39,320 nt of DNA, taken from NCBI GenBank assembly GCA_009923495.1, contig RFTJ01000005.1, positions 1 through 39,320 of the forward strand, in the 5' to 3' direction. A model generated the notes under the pieces. That model made no database searches. It was not told the origin of the DNA and was given only the letters and a program-made list of their open reading frames with translations. Origin of the DNA: Actinomycetota bacterium (GTDB lineage: Bacteria > Actinomycetota > Actinomycetes > S36-B12 > UBA5976). Below, in pieces: positions 21,502 through 38,008 of this stretch (its first letter is position 1; every line of letters starts with the position of its first letter). Made by a program: the position numbers and the translations under genes.

Positions 21502-21536
21502 TTGCCACCACTTAACTGGAAAGCCACCTCTAGTCC

Positions 21537-21600
21537 TCGGCCATTGCTGAGCCTGGCACCGGGGAAGGTGTGACAGGAGTCAAACAATGGCCGAAGGCCA
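21537..21600 (-). ncRNA. Structured RNA between mraZ and rsmH (candidate mraW RNA motif)
   Basis: On the minus strand a 10-bp perfect stem pairs TCGGCCATTG (complement of 21585-21594) with CAATGGCCGA (complement of 21537-21546). Inside it CACC/GGTG and CTG/CAG form a second stem around a 6-base loop. A competing hairpin, TGGCC-TTC-GGCCA (21600-21588), uses the same 5' arm, so two states are possible. From memory, an actinobacterial cis-regulatory 'mraW motif' has been described upstream of mraW (rsmH). Position and the stem with internal loops fit, but I could not compare it with a covariance model. Confidence 0.5.
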
Positions 21601-21619
21601 CAGATGGTTTCCGAAAAAA

Positions 21620-31481: not shown

Positions 31482-32900
31482 CTAGGAATCAAAGCCCATG
31501 CCGAGGCGATCTAATAGGCGTAACCACCAGTTTCGTTTGCCTTGATTGCGATCAGCTTGATCGAGCGACCAACGAGTGAAATTAATCGTTGCAGAACGCA
31601 ATGGTTCGGGCGGAAATGGTTTTGGCAAAGTTCTAGTCATTTCGAAATCTAGATCGGGATTGGCCCAATCAAAAAGTTGGTCTAGCGCAACACGTGCGCC
31701 AAACCTAGAGGCGCCAACTCCCAATCCCGTATACCCAGCGACATAAGCGACTTTACGTTGCATGGCCAAACCCCAAAATGCACTAAAGCGCGTGCAGGTA
31801 TCAATAGCACCACTCCAGCCGTACTCAAATTTCAAGTCTGCTAATTGGGGAAACGTGATAAAGAAGTGGTCGGCAAGTTTTGGCCAAGAAGCGGTGGATT
31901 GTTCAAATTCCTTTCCGAATCCGCTTCGATAATGATAGGTGGCGTCATATCCCCCCCAAAGAATTCGACCATCTTCTGTTGGCCGATAGTAATGAAATTG
32001 ATTACCTGAATCGCTAATTCCCTCGTTAGATTTCCAACCAATGTCTGCGCGCATTTGGGGCGATAGTGGCTCGGTTACTAAAACCGAATCATAAACGGGA
32101 ACTATCAAATTTTTGAGCCGCTTTAGTAGTGCTGGGTAGGCATTAGTTGCTAGTAGCACCTTAGGCGTACGCAGAGTGCCAAACTCACATTGCAGCTCAA
32201 CAAAGTCTGCTTTGTCAGAAATTTCCCGAACTGGTGTGTGCTCATAGATCTGAACGCCCAGGGCAATTGCAACATCGCGTAGTCCCCAGGCAAGTCGAGC
32301 GGGATCGCAAATCGCGACACTGTCTGGGTCAAAAAGACCCCCGACATATGTTGGTGAATTTATTTTTGCTCGTACTTGAGGTTGATCAAGCCAAACTAAC
32401 TGCTCGCCATAATTTGCTGCCTGTTCAATAAATGATTGAAGGACATCAACTTGATACTGCTCTGTTGCCACGTCAATTTCCCCGACTCGTCGCCAGTCAC
32501 AGTCGATGTTGTGTTTGATGACAAAGTCTTCGATGGCGTCGAGATTTTCGTGTCCGGCGGCAACTAACCGTTCAAGTTCGGTAGGCCAGCGAGCGAGTCC
32601 ATTAGCGAAACCGTGCGTCAGAGAAGCGGCAACAAAACCACCGTTTCGACCACTTGCTCCATGTGCAATCGCCTCCCCCTCCACCAGCACAACATCGAGT
32701 TCTGGATTACCGGTCTTTGCCTCTATGGCGGCCCATAATCCCGTGAATCCACCACCAACAATGACTAAATCTGAAGTTATCGTGCCAATTAACCGAGACC
32801 TATCTTTTGGTGCATCAATATCATCCAGCCAATAGCACTGATTTTTGATGTCAGCCAATGACGGTAAAACTTTGGTGGATGCCGAATGAGAAAAAACCAT
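31482..32900 (-). CDS. FAD-dependent amine oxidoreductase (DAO/PuuB-like)
   Basis: A 472-residue flavoprotein of the D-amino-acid oxidase fold. The FAD dinucleotide site is GGGFTGLWAA at 49-58, with E74 at the end of the second strand and the SGRNGGF motif at 83-89. Later blocks include LLATNAYPALL and the C-terminal AYVAGYTGLGVGASRFG, which is the closing FAD loop. Relatives include gamma-glutamylputrescine oxidase (PuuB), and oxidation of a primary amine to an aldehyde with H2O2 release is the likely reaction. No PuuA (glutamyl ligase) is in the window, so free amines may be used. The start ATG (32900) lies inside a long helix predicted in the leader. Confidence 0.85.
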   Translation of the reverse strand: MVFSHSASTKVLPSLADIKNQCYWLDDIDAPKDRSRLIGTITSDLVIVGGGFTGLWAAIEAKTGNPELDVVLVEGEAIAHGASGRNGGFVAASLTHGFANGLARWPTELERLVAAGHENLDAIEDFVIKHNIDCDWRRVGEIDVATEQYQVDVLQSFIEQAANYGEQLVWLDQPQVRAKINSPTYVGGLFDPDSVAICDPARLAWGLRDVAIALGVQIYEHTPVREISDKADFVELQCEFGTLRTPKVLLATNAYPALLKRLKNLIVPVYDSVLVTEPLSPQMRADIGWKSNEGISDSGNQFHYYRPTEDGRILWGGYDATYHYRSGFGKEFEQSTASWPKLADHFFITFPQLADLKFEYGWSGAIDTCTRFSAFWGLAMQRKVAYVAGYTGLGVGASRFGARVALDQLFDWANPDLDFEMTRTLPKPFPPEPLRSATINFTRWSLDQADRNQGKRNWWLRLLDRLGMGFDS

Positions 32901-33060
32901 AGTGAAAGTCCTTTATTTGGGTGAGCATTAGCTCACTGGTGTCAACATAAATTGCTGAATACATCAGCAGGCTGTTGTATTTCGGGTCGTCGCACTAAAG
33001 CGAACCCCGGATCCCACCAGTCCCTTTCACTATGCGTGGCTTGCCCTAATGCCTAGCCAC
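32898..33060 (-). promoter_or_regulatory. Candidate structured RNA leader sequestering the flavoprotein start codon
   Basis: Minus-strand RNA, 5' to 3'. A hairpin GTGGCT/AGCCAC (33060-33036). CATAGTGAAAG (33034-33024) pairs perfectly over 11 bp with CTTTCACTATG (32908-32898), whose last three bases are the start codon. Inside that, ACTGGTG (33021-33015) pairs with CACCAGT (32941-32935), closing a loop with two hairpins: a bulged CGGGGT-TCGC/GCGA-ACCCG stem (about 33012-32985) and AATACA-a-CAG / CTG-a-TGTATT (32981-32958). A final hairpin, GTGAGC-taat-GCTCAC (32936-32921), shares two bases with the closing stem. AAAGGA eight bases before the ATG is the ribosome site. No known riboswitch class is recognised. 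A possible promoter, TTGACT (33074-33069) with CATTAG (33051-33046), is weak. Paired protein operators are the alternative. Confidence 0.5.
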
Positions 33061-33139
33061 CAATCGGCAGTCAAACAGACTACCCCTTGCCCTCGTATGG
33101 TAACTCAGAAAGTGAAGCAATCCTTGCCTTTGACACGAA

Positions 33140-34576
33140 TTAATCTAATGAAGCCATTACGTGCTTAATTCTGGTGTAATCCTCAAGGCCATACATGGAC
33201 AAATCTTTGCCATAGCCCGAATGTTTGAAACCACCATGCGGCATTTCGGCCACCACTGGAATGTGAGTATTAATCCAAACGCAGCCAAAGTCCAAAAGTC
33301 GCGACATGCGCAAACCAACTCCAATGTCCCGAGTCCAGACCGAAGATGCCAGACCATATTTGACATCGTTTGCCCAAGCGAGCGCTTGGGCTTCGTCTGT
33401 GAACTTCTGAACTGTCATGACTGGGCCAAAGATTTCACTTTGAATCATCTCGTCAGTCTGCTGTAGGTCACTAATCACCGTTGGTTCAATGTAGTAACCC
33501 CTGTCCCCAATCCGCTTTCCACCTGCTACTACTTGAGCATGACCGGGTGTGCGATCGATGAAGCCAAGTACCTTCTCGAGTTGTGCGGCATTATTAACTG
33601 GGGGAACTAATGCATCTTCATCGCTTGGTCCATTTTCAAAAGTTGTAACAGTTTTGCGAGCTTGCTCTGCTAGCGCTGCCACGAATTCGTTGTAAATTCC
33701 TTCTTGGACCAGAACACGGGTTGCTGCAGTGCAGTCTTGACCCGCATTGAAGTAGCCGGCAACTGCCAACCACTCTGCTGCTGCAGCGATGTCGGCATCA
33801 TTAAAAACTACAACTGGGGCCTTGCCACCAAGCTCTAGGTGGACTCGTTTCACATCGCGCGAAGCACTCGCTGCAACTTCCATGCCAGCACGAACTGATC
33901 CAGTAACTGCTACCATTTGTGGCGTTTGGTGTTCAACAAGGGTTCGACCAGTATCGCGATCACCAGTAACTACATTGAATACGCCCGGTGGCAAGATTTG
34001 TCCCATCAGCTCGGCCATTCGCACTGTAGAGGCTGGCGTTGTATCCGATGGCTTTAAGACAACACAGTTGCCAGCAGCTAGAGCTGGCGCGAACTTCCAC
34101 ACAGCCATCATCATCGGATAATTCCATGGAGTTACTTGACCAACGATCCCTACGGGTTCGCGTCGAATCATTGAAGTAAAGCCCTTCATGTATTCACCTG
34201 ATGAACGTCCTTCAAGAACCCGAGCTGCGCCCGCGAAAAAGCGAATCTGATCTAACATCGGCGGCAACTCTTCCGACATTGTCACAGGAATCGGCTTGCC
34301 AGTGTTCTCCGATTCGATCGCGACTAACTCGTCGCCATGCGCTTCAAATAGATCGGCGATGTCGAGTAACATTTTCTGGCGCTCAGCCGGCGTAGTGTCT
34401 CGCCATGATTCAAATGCCTTACTTGCAGCAGAGTAGGCGCGGTCGATATCTTCGGCGTTAGATAGCTGTGCTTGTGCGAAGACTTCGCCAGATGACGGGT
34501 TAATAAGGTCGGTGGTCTGGCCGGTTACACCTTCGACCAATTCGCCATTGATGAAGTTTTTCAATACCTTTGCCAC
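33140..34576 (-). CDS. Aldehyde dehydrogenase, 4-aminobutanal (gamma-aminobutyraldehyde) type
   Basis: A 478-residue NAD(P)-dependent aldehyde dehydrogenase. Active-site residues are N152 in VTPWNYP, E248 in LELGGKAP and C282 in GQDCTAAT; the NAD-binding GSVRAG loop is at 226-231. GQDCTA and the length fit gamma-aminobutyraldehyde dehydrogenases (PatD/PuuC group), which turn 4-aminobutanal from putrescine into GABA. It sits between the two amine-oxidising modules. The GTG start at 34576 has a very good AGGAGG eight bases upstream. It faces away from the Lrp gene across a dyad-rich region. Confidence 0.9.
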   Translation of the reverse strand: MAKVLKNFINGELVEGVTGQTTDLINPSSGEVFAQAQLSNAEDIDRAYSAASKAFESWRDTTPAERQKMLLDIADLFEAHGDELVAIESENTGKPIPVTMSEELPPMLDQIRFFAGAARVLEGRSSGEYMKGFTSMIRREPVGIVGQVTPWNYPMMMAVWKFAPALAAGNCVVLKPSDTTPASTVRMAELMGQILPPGVFNVVTGDRDTGRTLVEHQTPQMVAVTGSVRAGMEVAASASRDVKRVHLELGGKAPVVVFNDADIAAAAEWLAVAGYFNAGQDCTAATRVLVQEGIYNEFVAALAEQARKTVTTFENGPSDEDALVPPVNNAAQLEKVLGFIDRTPGHAQVVAGGKRIGDRGYYIEPTVISDLQQTDEMIQSEIFGPVMTVQKFTDEAQALAWANDVKYGLASSVWTRDIGVGLRMSRLLDFGCVWINTHIPVVAEMPHGGFKHSGYGKDLSMYGLEDYTRIKHVMASLD

Positions 34577-34728: not shown

Positions 34729-34765
34729 GCTTGATTTGTTTGCTAAAACCGCGGAAAATGAGGTT

Positions 34766-35224
34766 ATGAGTAAGTCTCGGATAGTTGATGATGTTTCGCT
34801 TCGAATCATCGAGCAACTACAAGAAGATGGTCGTCGGCCCTATGCAACTATTGGCAAGGCGATTGGACTTTCCGAAGCTGCAGTGCGCCAACGAGTCACC
34901 AAATTGGTTGATTCTGGCGTAATGCAAATTGTTGCTGTTACTGATCCATTGCAAATTGGCTACAACCGTGCAGCAATGATCGGTATCGCGATTGAAGGGG
35001 ACTTGGAAAAAACTGCTGACGAATTAGCAAAAGTTCCTGAAGTCGATTACGTCGTGATAACTGCAGGGAGTTTTGACTTACTCATAGAAGTTACCTGCGC
35101 AGATGACGCAGCGTTGTTGGACGTGCTGAATAACAAAGTACGAACTTTACCAAATGTTATTCGCACCGAAACTTTCGTCTACCTAAATCTGCGCAAGCAA
35201 AGTTACAACTACGCAATCCACTAA
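34766..35224 (+). CDS. Lrp/AsnC family transcriptional regulator
   Basis: A 152-residue regulator with an N-terminal winged helix-turn-helix (SLRIIEQLQEDGRRPYATIGKAIG, recognition helix SEAAVRQRVTKLVDSG, shown in parts) and a C-terminal RAM/AsnC ligand and oligomerisation domain (AAMIGIAIEGDLEKTADELA, VDYVVITAGSFDLLIEV). Members bind amino acids or amines and act as octamers on several half-sites. It is divergent from the aldehyde dehydrogenase gene and runs 14 bp before the aminotransferase gene, so local control of the amine locus is likely. I prefer the ATG at 34766; an in-frame TTG at 34736 would add ten residues. The ribosome site is poorly defined. Confidence 0.9.
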   Translation: MSKSRIVDDVSLRIIEQLQEDGRRPYATIGKAIGLSEAAVRQRVTKLVDSGVMQIVAVTDPLQIGYNRAAMIGIAIEGDLEKTADELAKVPEVDYVVITAGSFDLLIEVTCADDAALLDVLNNKVRTLPNVIRTETFVYLNLRKQSYNYAIH

Positions 35225-35238
35225 ACATTGGAATAATC

Positions 35239-36624
35239 ATGGAAGCACATCACGAATACGACACCTTCTCACTCTCGCAGAAGGCACGAGACAATCTCTG
35301 GCTTCACTTCGCACGACATGGAGTGTACGAGAACGGCGCCGACGTCCCAGTAATTGTTCGGGGGGAAGGAGCATACATTTGGGATAGTAATGGGAAGCGC
35401 TATTTGGATGGCTTGGCAGGTTTGTTTACCGTGCAGATCGGTCATGGCCGCACTGAGTTAGCTGAAGCTGCTGCCAAGCAGATGTCGCAACTGGCTTACT
35501 TCCCACTTTGGTCATACGCACATCCAAAGGCGATTGAACTTGCAGAGCGTCTCGTGAGTTATGCGCCGCCAAATCTAAATCGTGTATTCTTCACAACCGG
35601 CGGGGGTGAAGCAGTTGAAACTGCCTGGAAAGCCGCGAAACAGTACTTCAAGTTAACTGGTAAGCCGATGAAGCATAAAGTAGTTAGTCGTTCAGTGGCC
35701 TATCATGGCACGCCGCAAGGTGCCCTTGCGATCACTGGGATTCCCGAAGCTAAGAAGTTTTTTGAGCCGTTAACCCCAGGCGGTTTTCGCGTTCCAAATA
35801 CCAATTTCTACCGGGCGCAATATCACCAAGACGACTACAAAGCATTTGGTCGCTGGGCTGCTGATCGCATCGAAGAAGCGATTTTGTTTGAAGGTCCCGA
35901 TACGGTTGCTTGCGTATTTCTGGAGCCTGTCCAAAACTCTGGTGGCTGCTTCCCACCACCACCTGGCTATCTAGAGCGGGTTCGGGAGATTTGTGACACA
36001 TACGATGTATTGCTAGTTGCCGATGAAACCATTTGTGCATTCGGCCGGATTGGTGACATGTTTGCGATGAACCGGTTTGGTGTTGAACCGGACATGATTA
36101 CTTGCGCAAAGGGTATGACCTCGGGCTACTCGCCTATCGGTGCCTGCATTGTCAGCGATAAAGTCTTTGAGCCGTTCAAAGTGGATAAAACTGCGTTCTA
36201 CCACGGCTACACATTTGGTGGTCATCCAGTTTCTTCTGCAGTTGCGCTTGCCAATTTGGACATCTTTGAAAAGGAAGGCATTAATCAGCATGTTCGGGAT
36301 AACGAAAATGCTTTCCGTCAGACTTTAGAGAAGTTAAAAGATCTTGACATCGTCGGTGATGTGCGTGGTGATGGCTTCTTCTACGGCATTGAGCTGGTTA
36401 AGGACAAGGGAACTAAAGAGACATTTAACGACCTTGAAGCTGAACGCCTACTTCGTGGCTACCTATCAAAGGCGATGTTTGAAGAAGGTCTCTACTGCCG
36501 TGCAGATGATCGTGGCGACCCAGTTGTACAACTGGCTCCACCGTTGATTATTGGCCAGCCAGAGTTTGACCTGATTGAACAAACTTTGCGCCACGTGCTT
36601 AGTACCGCGATGAATCACCTCTAA
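35239..36624 (+). CDS. Class III PLP aminotransferase, putrescine--pyruvate type
   Basis: A 461-residue fold-type I omega-transaminase. The PLP lysine is K291 in CAKGMTSGYSPIG; the DETICAFGR block with the cofactor aspartate is at about 257-265, and FTTGGGEAVETAWK binds the phosphate. LWLHFARHG and the FPLWSYAHPKAIELAE region recall SpuC-type putrescine:pyruvate (or polyamine:pyruvate) aminotransferases. The product, 4-aminobutanal, would feed the adjacent aldehyde dehydrogenase. Related beta-alanine or taurine transaminases cannot be excluded. The gene follows the Lrp gene by 14 bp and precedes a flavoprotein gene by seven; all three appear to form one operon. Confidence 0.9.
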   Translation: MEAHHEYDTFSLSQKARDNLWLHFARHGVYENGADVPVIVRGEGAYIWDSNGKRYLDGLAGLFTVQIGHGRTELAEAAAKQMSQLAYFPLWSYAHPKAIELAERLVSYAPPNLNRVFFTTGGGEAVETAWKAAKQYFKLTGKPMKHKVVSRSVAYHGTPQGALAITGIPEAKKFFEPLTPGGFRVPNTNFYRAQYHQDDYKAFGRWAADRIEEAILFEGPDTVACVFLEPVQNSGGCFPPPPGYLERVREICDTYDVLLVADETICAFGRIGDMFAMNRFGVEPDMITCAKGMTSGYSPIGACIVSDKVFEPFKVDKTAFYHGYTFGGHPVSSAVALANLDIFEKEGINQHVRDNENAFRQTLEKLKDLDIVGDVRGDGFFYGIELVKDKGTKETFNDLEAERLLRGYLSKAMFEEGLYCRADDRGDPVVQLAPPLIIGQPEFDLIEQTLRHVLSTAMNHL

Positions 36625-36631
36625 TTAATTG

Positions 36632-38008
36632 ATGAGCCCAGCCGTTTCCAATTCTTTGTGGTCGGATACGGCTGGGCTCAATCGCGTTCACCGACAAAGT
36701 CTCTCCGAAGACTTAGCGGTTGACGTAGCAATTGTAGGGGCCGGATTCACTGGACTATGGACTGCTTACTATTTGGCCAAACGAGCACCGCAGTTAAAAG
36801 TGGTAATCCTTGAGGCCAATGAAGTTGGTTTTGGCGCTTCCGGCCGCAATGGTGGGTGGTGTTCTGCCTTATTTCCCACGGCATTTTCAAAGTTGGCCAA
36901 TTCCCATGGGCCAGTACAAGCCAGACGAATGTACGACGCAATGGTACAAAATATTTCAGAAATCCAGAACGTCATAACTGTTGAAGAAATTGATTGCGAC
37001 TGGACGCTGGGTGGGACCATCGTCGCCGCTCGCAATCAGGTGCAGTTGAACAGAGCCAAAGCCGAGGTTGCTGAACATCGGAGTAACGGCCTGCCAGAAA
37101 GCGATTTGCAGTTACTTACGGCCGCTGAATTGGAAAACCAAGCTCATTTTTCTAGCGCGCTCGGTGGAACATTCACGCCACATTGCGCCGCAATTAATCC
37201 GGCCAAATTAGTACATGGTCTTGCCAATGTTGTAGAAAATCTTGGTGTAAAGATTTATGAGCAAACTCGTGTCGACAGAATCGAACCAAACCTGATTGGC
37301 ACAGAGAAAAATGTAGTGAAAGCAAAATATGTGGTTAGAGCGACCGAAGGTTACACCTCGGCCCTGGCAGATAAAAAGCGAGAAGTCGTTCCGGTGTATT
37401 CGCTTATGGTTGCAACTGAACCAATTCCCGGGGAAGTTTGGTCGGATTTAGGATTAGCAAATCGGCAGACTTTCAGTGATTTTAGAAACCTAGTAATTTA
37501 CGGACAGCGCACTACCGATAACCGAATCGCCTTTGGTGGCCGTGGCGCTCCATATCATTTTGGCTCAAGGATAAGTCCAGGCTTTGATCAAGTGCGGAAA
37601 GTACATGAATTACTTCGACGAACTTTGGTTGAGCTATTTCCAGCACTGTCCGAGGTTCAAATCACGCACCAGTGGGGTGGCGCGCTAGGTATTACGCGCG
37701 ATTGGATGGCATCGTGTGGTTTGGATCCAAAAACTGGCCTTGCTTGGGCTGGTGGCTATGTTGGTGATGGCGTTACTACGAGTTCGCTAGCTGGACAGAC
37801 GCTAGCTGCTTTAATTTCCGGGTTAGATACACCAATAACTTCCTTAGCTTGGGTTAACCATCAAAGTCCAAAATGGGAACCAGAGCCACTGCGCTGGCTC
37901 GGCATTAATTCAGCATTAGCCGCGGTGAAATTCGCCGATCGAGTTGAATTAAGGCGCGGTCGTGAGGCCAGGGCAGTAAAAGTTTTAAACCGACTGATTG
38001 GTGGCTAA
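36632..38008 (+). CDS. Second FAD-dependent amine oxidoreductase (DAO family)
   Basis: A 458-residue DAO-fold flavoprotein, distant paralogue of the one at 31482-32900. The FAD site is VGAGFTGLWTA from 35, with E61 and SGRNGGW at 70-76. VPVYSLMVATEPIP, an FGGRGAPYHFG block and the C-terminal WAGGYVGDGVTTSSLAG loop follow. The two share domain order and the SGRNGG motif but differ in much of the substrate domain, so distinct amine substrates are likely. It is seven bases after the aminotransferase stop. The ATG at 36632 lacks a clear ribosome site, suggesting coupling. The stop overlaps that of the convergent Pr6Pr gene by four bases. Confidence 0.85.
   Translation: MSPAVSNSLWSDTAGLNRVHRQSLSEDLAVDVAIVGAGFTGLWTAYYLAKRAPQLKVVILEANEVGFGASGRNGGWCSALFPTAFSKLANSHGPVQARRMYDAMVQNISEIQNVITVEEIDCDWTLGGTIVAARNQVQLNRAKAEVAEHRSNGLPESDLQLLTAAELENQAHFSSALGGTFTPHCAAINPAKLVHGLANVVENLGVKIYEQTRVDRIEPNLIGTEKNVVKAKYVVRATEGYTSALADKKREVVPVYSLMVATEPIPGEVWSDLGLANRQTFSDFRNLVIYGQRTTDNRIAFGGRGAPYHFGSRISPGFDQVRKVHELLRRTLVELFPALSEVQITHQWGGALGITRDWMASCGLDPKTGLAWAGGYVGDGVTTSSLAGQTLAALISGLDTPITSLAWVNHQSPKWEPEPLRWLGINSALAAVKFADRVELRRGREARAVKVLNRLIGG

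Follow-up and report, generated by a model that had tools for sequence, protein, structure and literature searches.

A probable cis-regulatory RNA leader before an amine oxidoreductase gene in Nanopelagicales

Comparison of related genomes showed a predicted leader RNA in which a near-invariant core is followed by a covarying hairpin, at a fixed position ahead of the start of a gene for an amine-type FAD oxidoreductase (DAO). In the genus of the window, by which we mean the whole 39,320-nucleotide stretch of DNA that was analysed, this family form is larger, having gained a P2 domain that contains two hairpins and two further hairpins upstream. We consider it probable that the leader belongs to a new cis-regulatory RNA family controlling translation of a putrescine-type polyamine oxidoreductase in the Nanopelagicales, which is very probably the order of the window genome (1.45 Mb).

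The leader in the window

The leader and its flanking genes lie on the minus strand and are listed in the order in which that strand is read.

33140 to 34576, minus strand: aminobutyraldehyde dehydrogenase gene, upstream of DAO on the same strand (NF010000, 700.6 bits, above the cut-off of 615)
33097 to 33102, minus strand: -10-like hexamer TACCAT; a transcript start would be expected at about 33090
33060 to 33089, minus strand: domain A, CAA-GG-hairpin-GA-UUG, which covaries; its flanking CAAGGGG and GAUUGG hardly vary within the genus
33036 to 33060, minus strand: hairpin 2, GUGGCU/AGCCAC in the window; stem sequence varies between subclades
33024 to 33034, minus strand: 5' arm of the start-codon helix, CAUAGUGAAAG
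33012 to 33024, minus strand: core GGGAYUGGUGGGA, the same across families except at Y
33015 to 33021, minus strand: 5' strand of P2, ACUGGUG; each pair formed in 17 to 19 of 19 distinct sequences
32983 to 33009, minus strand: hairpin 3, behind the core; covaries in the genus
32943 to 32977, minus strand: hairpin 4; two-sided changes in 8 of 9 pairs
32935 to 32941, minus strand: 3' strand of P2, CACCAGU
32923 to 32934, minus strand: hairpin 5, GAGC/GCUC; when extended, it competes with the end of P2
32909 to 32914, minus strand: Shine-Dalgarno-like AAAGGA, 8 nt 5' of the start codon
32898 to 32908, minus strand: 3' arm of the start-codon helix, CUUUCACUAUG, including the AUG
31482 to 32900, minus strand: DAO gene, FAD-dependent amine oxidoreductase of 472 aa (Pfam DAO, 5e-59)

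An earlier note on this DNA had described an 11-bp helix ending in the DAO start codon, unlikely to arise by chance, with a 7-bp pair nested inside it. Both were found: CTTTCACTATG (32908-32898, minus strand) is perfectly complementary to CATAGTGAAAG (33034-33024), with 115 nt between the arms, and ACTGGTG/CACCAGT (33021-33015 and 32941-32935) lies within. When both arms were shuffled with the ATG kept, about 0.1% of trials equalled the native duplex energy, in agreement with the low chance that had been claimed. The 181-nt leader RNA folded at -68.1 kcal/mol compared with -49.0 +/- 4.2 in dinucleotide shuffles (z -4.53), beating all 200 of them, and a longer leader of 207 nt gave a z of -5.26. 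With these results, we conclude that the 11-bp start-codon helix is real and above chance.

The rest of the described layout required revision. The junction does contain two hairpins, but neither is the proposed 9-bp stem with a symmetric mismatch; they comprise 4+4 bp (33009-32983) and 5+6 bp (32977-32943), each with an asymmetric loop. The last hairpin, GUGAGC/GCUCAC in its long form (32936-32921), overlaps the nested 7-bp stem rather than the closing stem with which it was said to share bases. The element also reaches upstream of the described 32898-33060, with two more conserved hairpins at 33060-33036 and 33089-33060 and a -10-like box.

TANNAT was present at the matching place in 16 of 20 leaders of the genus, counted by eye, and in the compact leaders found outside it -10-like boxes lay upstream of the core in 13 of 33, compared with 4.0 expected from shuffling. 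A stricter -35/-10 scan found no promoter at TACCAT of the window leader. The boxes suggest a transcript that starts shortly before the core, and the conservation of the box argues against, though does not disprove, a transcript start downstream of 33024.

Conservation in the genus and the order

Of 23 genomes in the genus, 20 gave the leader in a DNA search and with a covariance model, each time directly before DAO. These 20 are all the genomes whose DAO start is intact: of the remaining three, one holds a C-terminal fragment of the gene and two gave no DAO match at the cut-off. Hairpin 2, the core GGGACUGGUGGGA and hairpin 5 were present in all 20 leaders, hairpin 5 in a rearranged form in L008, as were hairpins 3 and 4, which lie inside P2; domain A is common to 18, L011 and L014 having a different hairpin at that place. 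Hairpin 2 folds in every leader with differing stems, for example UCUGC/GCAGA, CAGGC/GCCUG and GUGAG/CUCAC. In L008, about 47 nt containing partial repeats of GCTCACCAAT are inserted between hairpin 5 and the start codon, and the leader is thereby set apart from the start codon.

Covariation in the genus model scored 0.240 compared with 0.097 when shuffled (every measure, 0 of 500 shuffles), 90.7% of alignment cells pair and 15 of 30 pairs show two-sided change, values that come from an alignment fitted to the model's structure, which therefore leans towards it, and from shuffles that ignore relatedness. Sliding the partners by 1 to 3 columns lowered the score to 0.047 or less. Domain A, examined in a gap-free alignment made without the model, scored 0.426 compared with 0.208 when shuffled (0 of 500), and slid structures reached 0.12 at most. 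P2 gives no covariation information because it is almost invariant; its 3' strand is altered without compensation in L011 and L014. The homologous leaders and the covariation that the earlier note had proposed to look for were thus both found, the latter in several helices.

The start-codon helix measures 11 bp in the window, 9 bp in L002 and L019, 11 bp with G-U in L027 and 9 bp with G-U in L011, and it is short or displaced in the rest. It is kept with different sequences in three branches of the genus (CAUAGUGAAAG, CAUGUUAGG and CAUGGAAAG), and native arms pair better than arms swapped between species (p = 0.0012). The long helices are spread over three separate branches of the DAO tree, a pattern consistent with an old feature that was repeatedly lost or replaced. 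The helix is absent or weak in L008, L014 and L016 and in the largest subclade of the genus, which retains the protein, the core and the hairpins while most of its members have no long helix. The earlier note had held that homologues keeping the protein and losing the complementarity would speak against its proposal; this is true of the largest subclade, but long helices occur elsewhere in the genus. Because it was lost in other branches, the helix is not a defining element of the family. We conclude that it is one version of a start-site element, a real part of the leader and not a defining one. In leaders of the L003 subclade, GCAAGGG at the 5' end of the RNA is a potential alternative partner for the stretch preceding the start codon (GCAAGGG/CUUUUGC, 7-8 bp, G-U rich, with a nearly invariant 5' arm).

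DAO orthologues are present in 116 of the 162 genomes of the order. Upstream DNA was taken for 60 of them, and among the 59 that were usable, 30 carry [A/G]GGA[C/T]TGGTGGGA before DAO. The core GGGAYUGGUGGGA precedes DAO in 67 of the 162 genomes, in 3 families and 14 genera (20 in the window's genus, 3 in the rest of its family, 41 in family f6 and 3 in family f7), a count obtained by comparing coordinates, with L298 and L299 added, and admitting cores at most about 150 nt upstream of DAO or of a 38-44% identical relative. The distance from core to start is 60-72 nt in 23 of 29 measured leaders. Behind the core of these compact leaders lies a 7-bp hairpin, the counterpart of hairpin 3, whose stem covaries strongly (0.556 compared with 0.230 when shuffled, 0 of 500) and whose loop is often GNUCG. 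The core forms the 5' boundary of the compact form, since nothing upstream of GAAGGG is conserved. The shortest leader, that of L299, has about 40 nt from core to ATG; the DAO relative behind it is only 38% identical. Where orthologues lack the core, they often lie close behind the upstream gene.

The compact-form model matched 58 of the 162 genomes. Across 395 genomes of the class, strong matches occurred in this order only; those outside it were weak, and none of the nine weak ones inspected adjoins DAO. Strong matches precede DAO relatives only, matches cut off by contig ends aside, and not several unrelated pathway genes as is usual, though not required, for riboswitches; this single gene type under the leader counts against our favoured reading. 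A model of genus g31 gave no match among the other leaders tried. Two sets of matches were set aside: those that the 16-mer GGGACTGGTGGGATCC gave in public genomes, mostly chance among the matches listed, and some core matches in relatives that encode an in-frame protein phrase, G-D-W-W-D. Ahead of seven DAO orthologues of family f7 (L242, L245, L251, L253, L255, L266 and L267) lies another conserved leader, GGCCGUNNCGUCCGGAGGACCCGGGGCGGC, which includes a GUCC-GGA-GGAC hairpin and has no Rfam match.

Polyamine context, known RNA classes and rival explanations

The best NCBIfam match of DAO, Phn_aa_oxid, is far under its cut-off, and no solved relative was found by sequence at E 1e-10. The gene upstream of DAO encodes an aminobutyraldehyde dehydrogenase in the window and a succinate-semialdehyde dehydrogenase type in two other genus-mates tested. 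The arrangement in genus g31 is PotA-PotB-PotC-leader-DAO-agmatinase-carboxynorspermidine synthase-like-GABA transaminase (GabT), the last on the other strand, with PotA and PotB named by eye from sequence. Because the neighbours are polyamine genes (PotABC, agmatinase, GabT and aminobutyraldehyde dehydrogenase), polyamine breakdown is the natural theme, and acI bacteria are predicted to use polyamines (PMC5574706). On its plus strand the window also holds a divergent cluster (34736-38008) that encodes an Lrp/AsnC regulator, a class III aminotransferase and another oxidoreductase of DAO type. This paralogue is not preceded by the core motif, of which the window genome contains a single copy. 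An mraW RNA motif (RF01746) lies at 21511-21616 on the minus strand (56.2 bits, above the gathering score).

A search of Rfam 15, also at relaxed thresholds, gave a few weak matches, all far under the gathering score, and no bacterial riboswitch at the leader, which bears out the earlier note's remark that it knew no class with this layout. In the open-access literature we found no report of the sequence and no putrescine riboswitch. The leader gave no SAM-I match up to E 10, and its helix plan differs from the four-stem SAM-I aptamer; GGGACUGG occurs in SAM-I aptamers too. The spermidine riboswitch is a SAM-I variant that binds spermidine and rejects SAM, and it acts with the four-stem fold by transcription termination before biosynthesis genes in Gram-positive genera such as Bacillus and Oceanobacillus (PMC10853860). 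Like it, the present leader is tied to polyamine genes, but it stands before a catabolic gene and has no SAM-I match. The potC RNA motif is a candidate RNA linked to polyamine transport. This marine motif (Rfam RF01751, listed in PMC2864571) has different hosts and its covariance model did not match the leaders; the g31 RNA sits behind potC and before DAO. The gabT RNA motif of Pseudomonas (Rfam RF01738, listed in PMC2864571) resembles the leader as a candidate leader for a gene of the same pathway, but it comes from another phylum and matched none of the leaders here. With translational riboswitches generally, the leader shares a core near the 5' end and a helix over the Shine-Dalgarno or AUG; it differs in that the sequestering helix is not uniform across the family and the ligand is only conjectural. 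A conserved, structured 5' leader with covariation, one of the general marks of a riboswitch, was found.

Two forms of attenuation were rejected. For a leader peptide there is no consistent upstream frame, a start without a stop before the core occurring in only 8 to 21 of 33 leaders per frame. The 5' end of the L003 group, ATG AAA GGG CAA GGG GAT CAC CTG TAG, could encode an 8-residue peptide; the frame is absent in the window (L001), L005 and L013 and is therefore probably incidental. For transcription attenuation there is no intrinsic terminator: the gene's strand has only a weak stem that lacks a real U-run.

In one rival explanation, an RNA-binding regulator, or DAO itself, would recognise the core and hairpin and block or open the start site. 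A short invariant single strand beside a variable hairpin, with little else conserved in the compact leaders, fits a protein as well as an aptamer, as does a leader of only about 40 nt from core to start in L299. We nevertheless regard a protein site as unlikely, as no co-conserved candidate regulator was identified and a protein site would rarely need extra domains as elaborate as those of the genus version. It is improbable that a regulator binds the core as DNA, with the hairpins incidental: the core does lie downstream of -10-like boxes in many leaders and an Lrp-type regulator gene is nearby in the window, but the hairpins covary strongly and the core is non-palindromic, in a single orientation and at a fixed distance to the start codon.

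The window helix covers the start codon itself, as it would in a thermometer-like or constitutive stable leader setting a low or temperature-dependent translation rate, but this leaves the invariant 13-nt core across families and the compensated hairpins unexplained, and we think it distinctly improbable. We give very little weight to a standby or decoy ribosome site in which the G-rich core mimics a Shine-Dalgarno sequence; AAGGGA and GGUGGGA may pair weakly with the 16S 3' end, but the core appears more strictly conserved than ribosome binding requires, and core-to-start distances vary in frame. Chance complementarity would account for the absence of the 11-bp match from most members of the largest subclade, but it is hardly credible given its rarity in shuffles and the recurrence of helices of at least 9 bp over the start codon, with other sequences, in two further branches.

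Proposed control of DAO translation

Our preferred reading is that of a translational leader RNA. The earlier note's proposal of a structured leader able to limit DAO translation is supported by the genus homologues, the covariation, the polyamine context and the lack of a match to a known class. In the mechanism we infer, the G-rich core or the segment just 5' of it would pair with the stretch from Shine-Dalgarno to start (CUUUCACUAUG in the window) and turn initiation off, and a signal acting on the core would alter this pairing. We take the invariant core as the putative site of signal action. Because the gene is catabolic, an amine or a derivative would be expected to free the start site, making the leader an ON switch.

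CCC adjoining the start codon was found in 19 of 29 orthologues with the core compared with 6 of 27 without it (p = 0.0014, relatedness ignored), and in many minimum-energy folds CCC near the start pairs with GGGAY or GGUGGG of the core. Start-site pairing occurs in many leaders, not all. Predicted core-to-start pairing in the compact leaders exceeded shuffles only marginally (p = 0.077, relatedness ignored) and was absent in genus g31. We therefore rejected the core as a uniform start-site blocker, with g31 a clear exception, and, given the marginal test and this exception, conclude that start-site control of DAO translation is likely but not uniform.

The signal could be a small molecule bound directly, a protein or a small RNA. 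Direct binding, which would make the leader a riboswitch, is a serious possibility that we hold tentatively. The earlier suggestion that the leader senses an amine, product or flavin-related ligand is conjecture. In its specific form, the core of a new riboswitch class would bind putrescine, 4-aminobutyraldehyde or GABA and free the polyamine oxidase start, its minimal and expanded forms, of about 65 and about 190 nt, occurring in the same order; this too is plausible, short of probable.

Taken together, good comparative support points to a cis-regulatory RNA family that is real and apparently uncatalogued. The Nanopelagicales (acI) are freshwater bacteria of wide distribution, whose predicted use of nitrogen compounds includes polyamines (PMC5574706). 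An RNA that regulates polyamine breakdown in this order would be a new family outside Rfam. If the ligand is bound directly, the leader may be a naturally occurring RNA that senses a simple diamine or GABA; to our knowledge, no such sensor has been validated. The minimal and elaborated forms, side by side, may show how a leader RNA can expand around an unchanging core.
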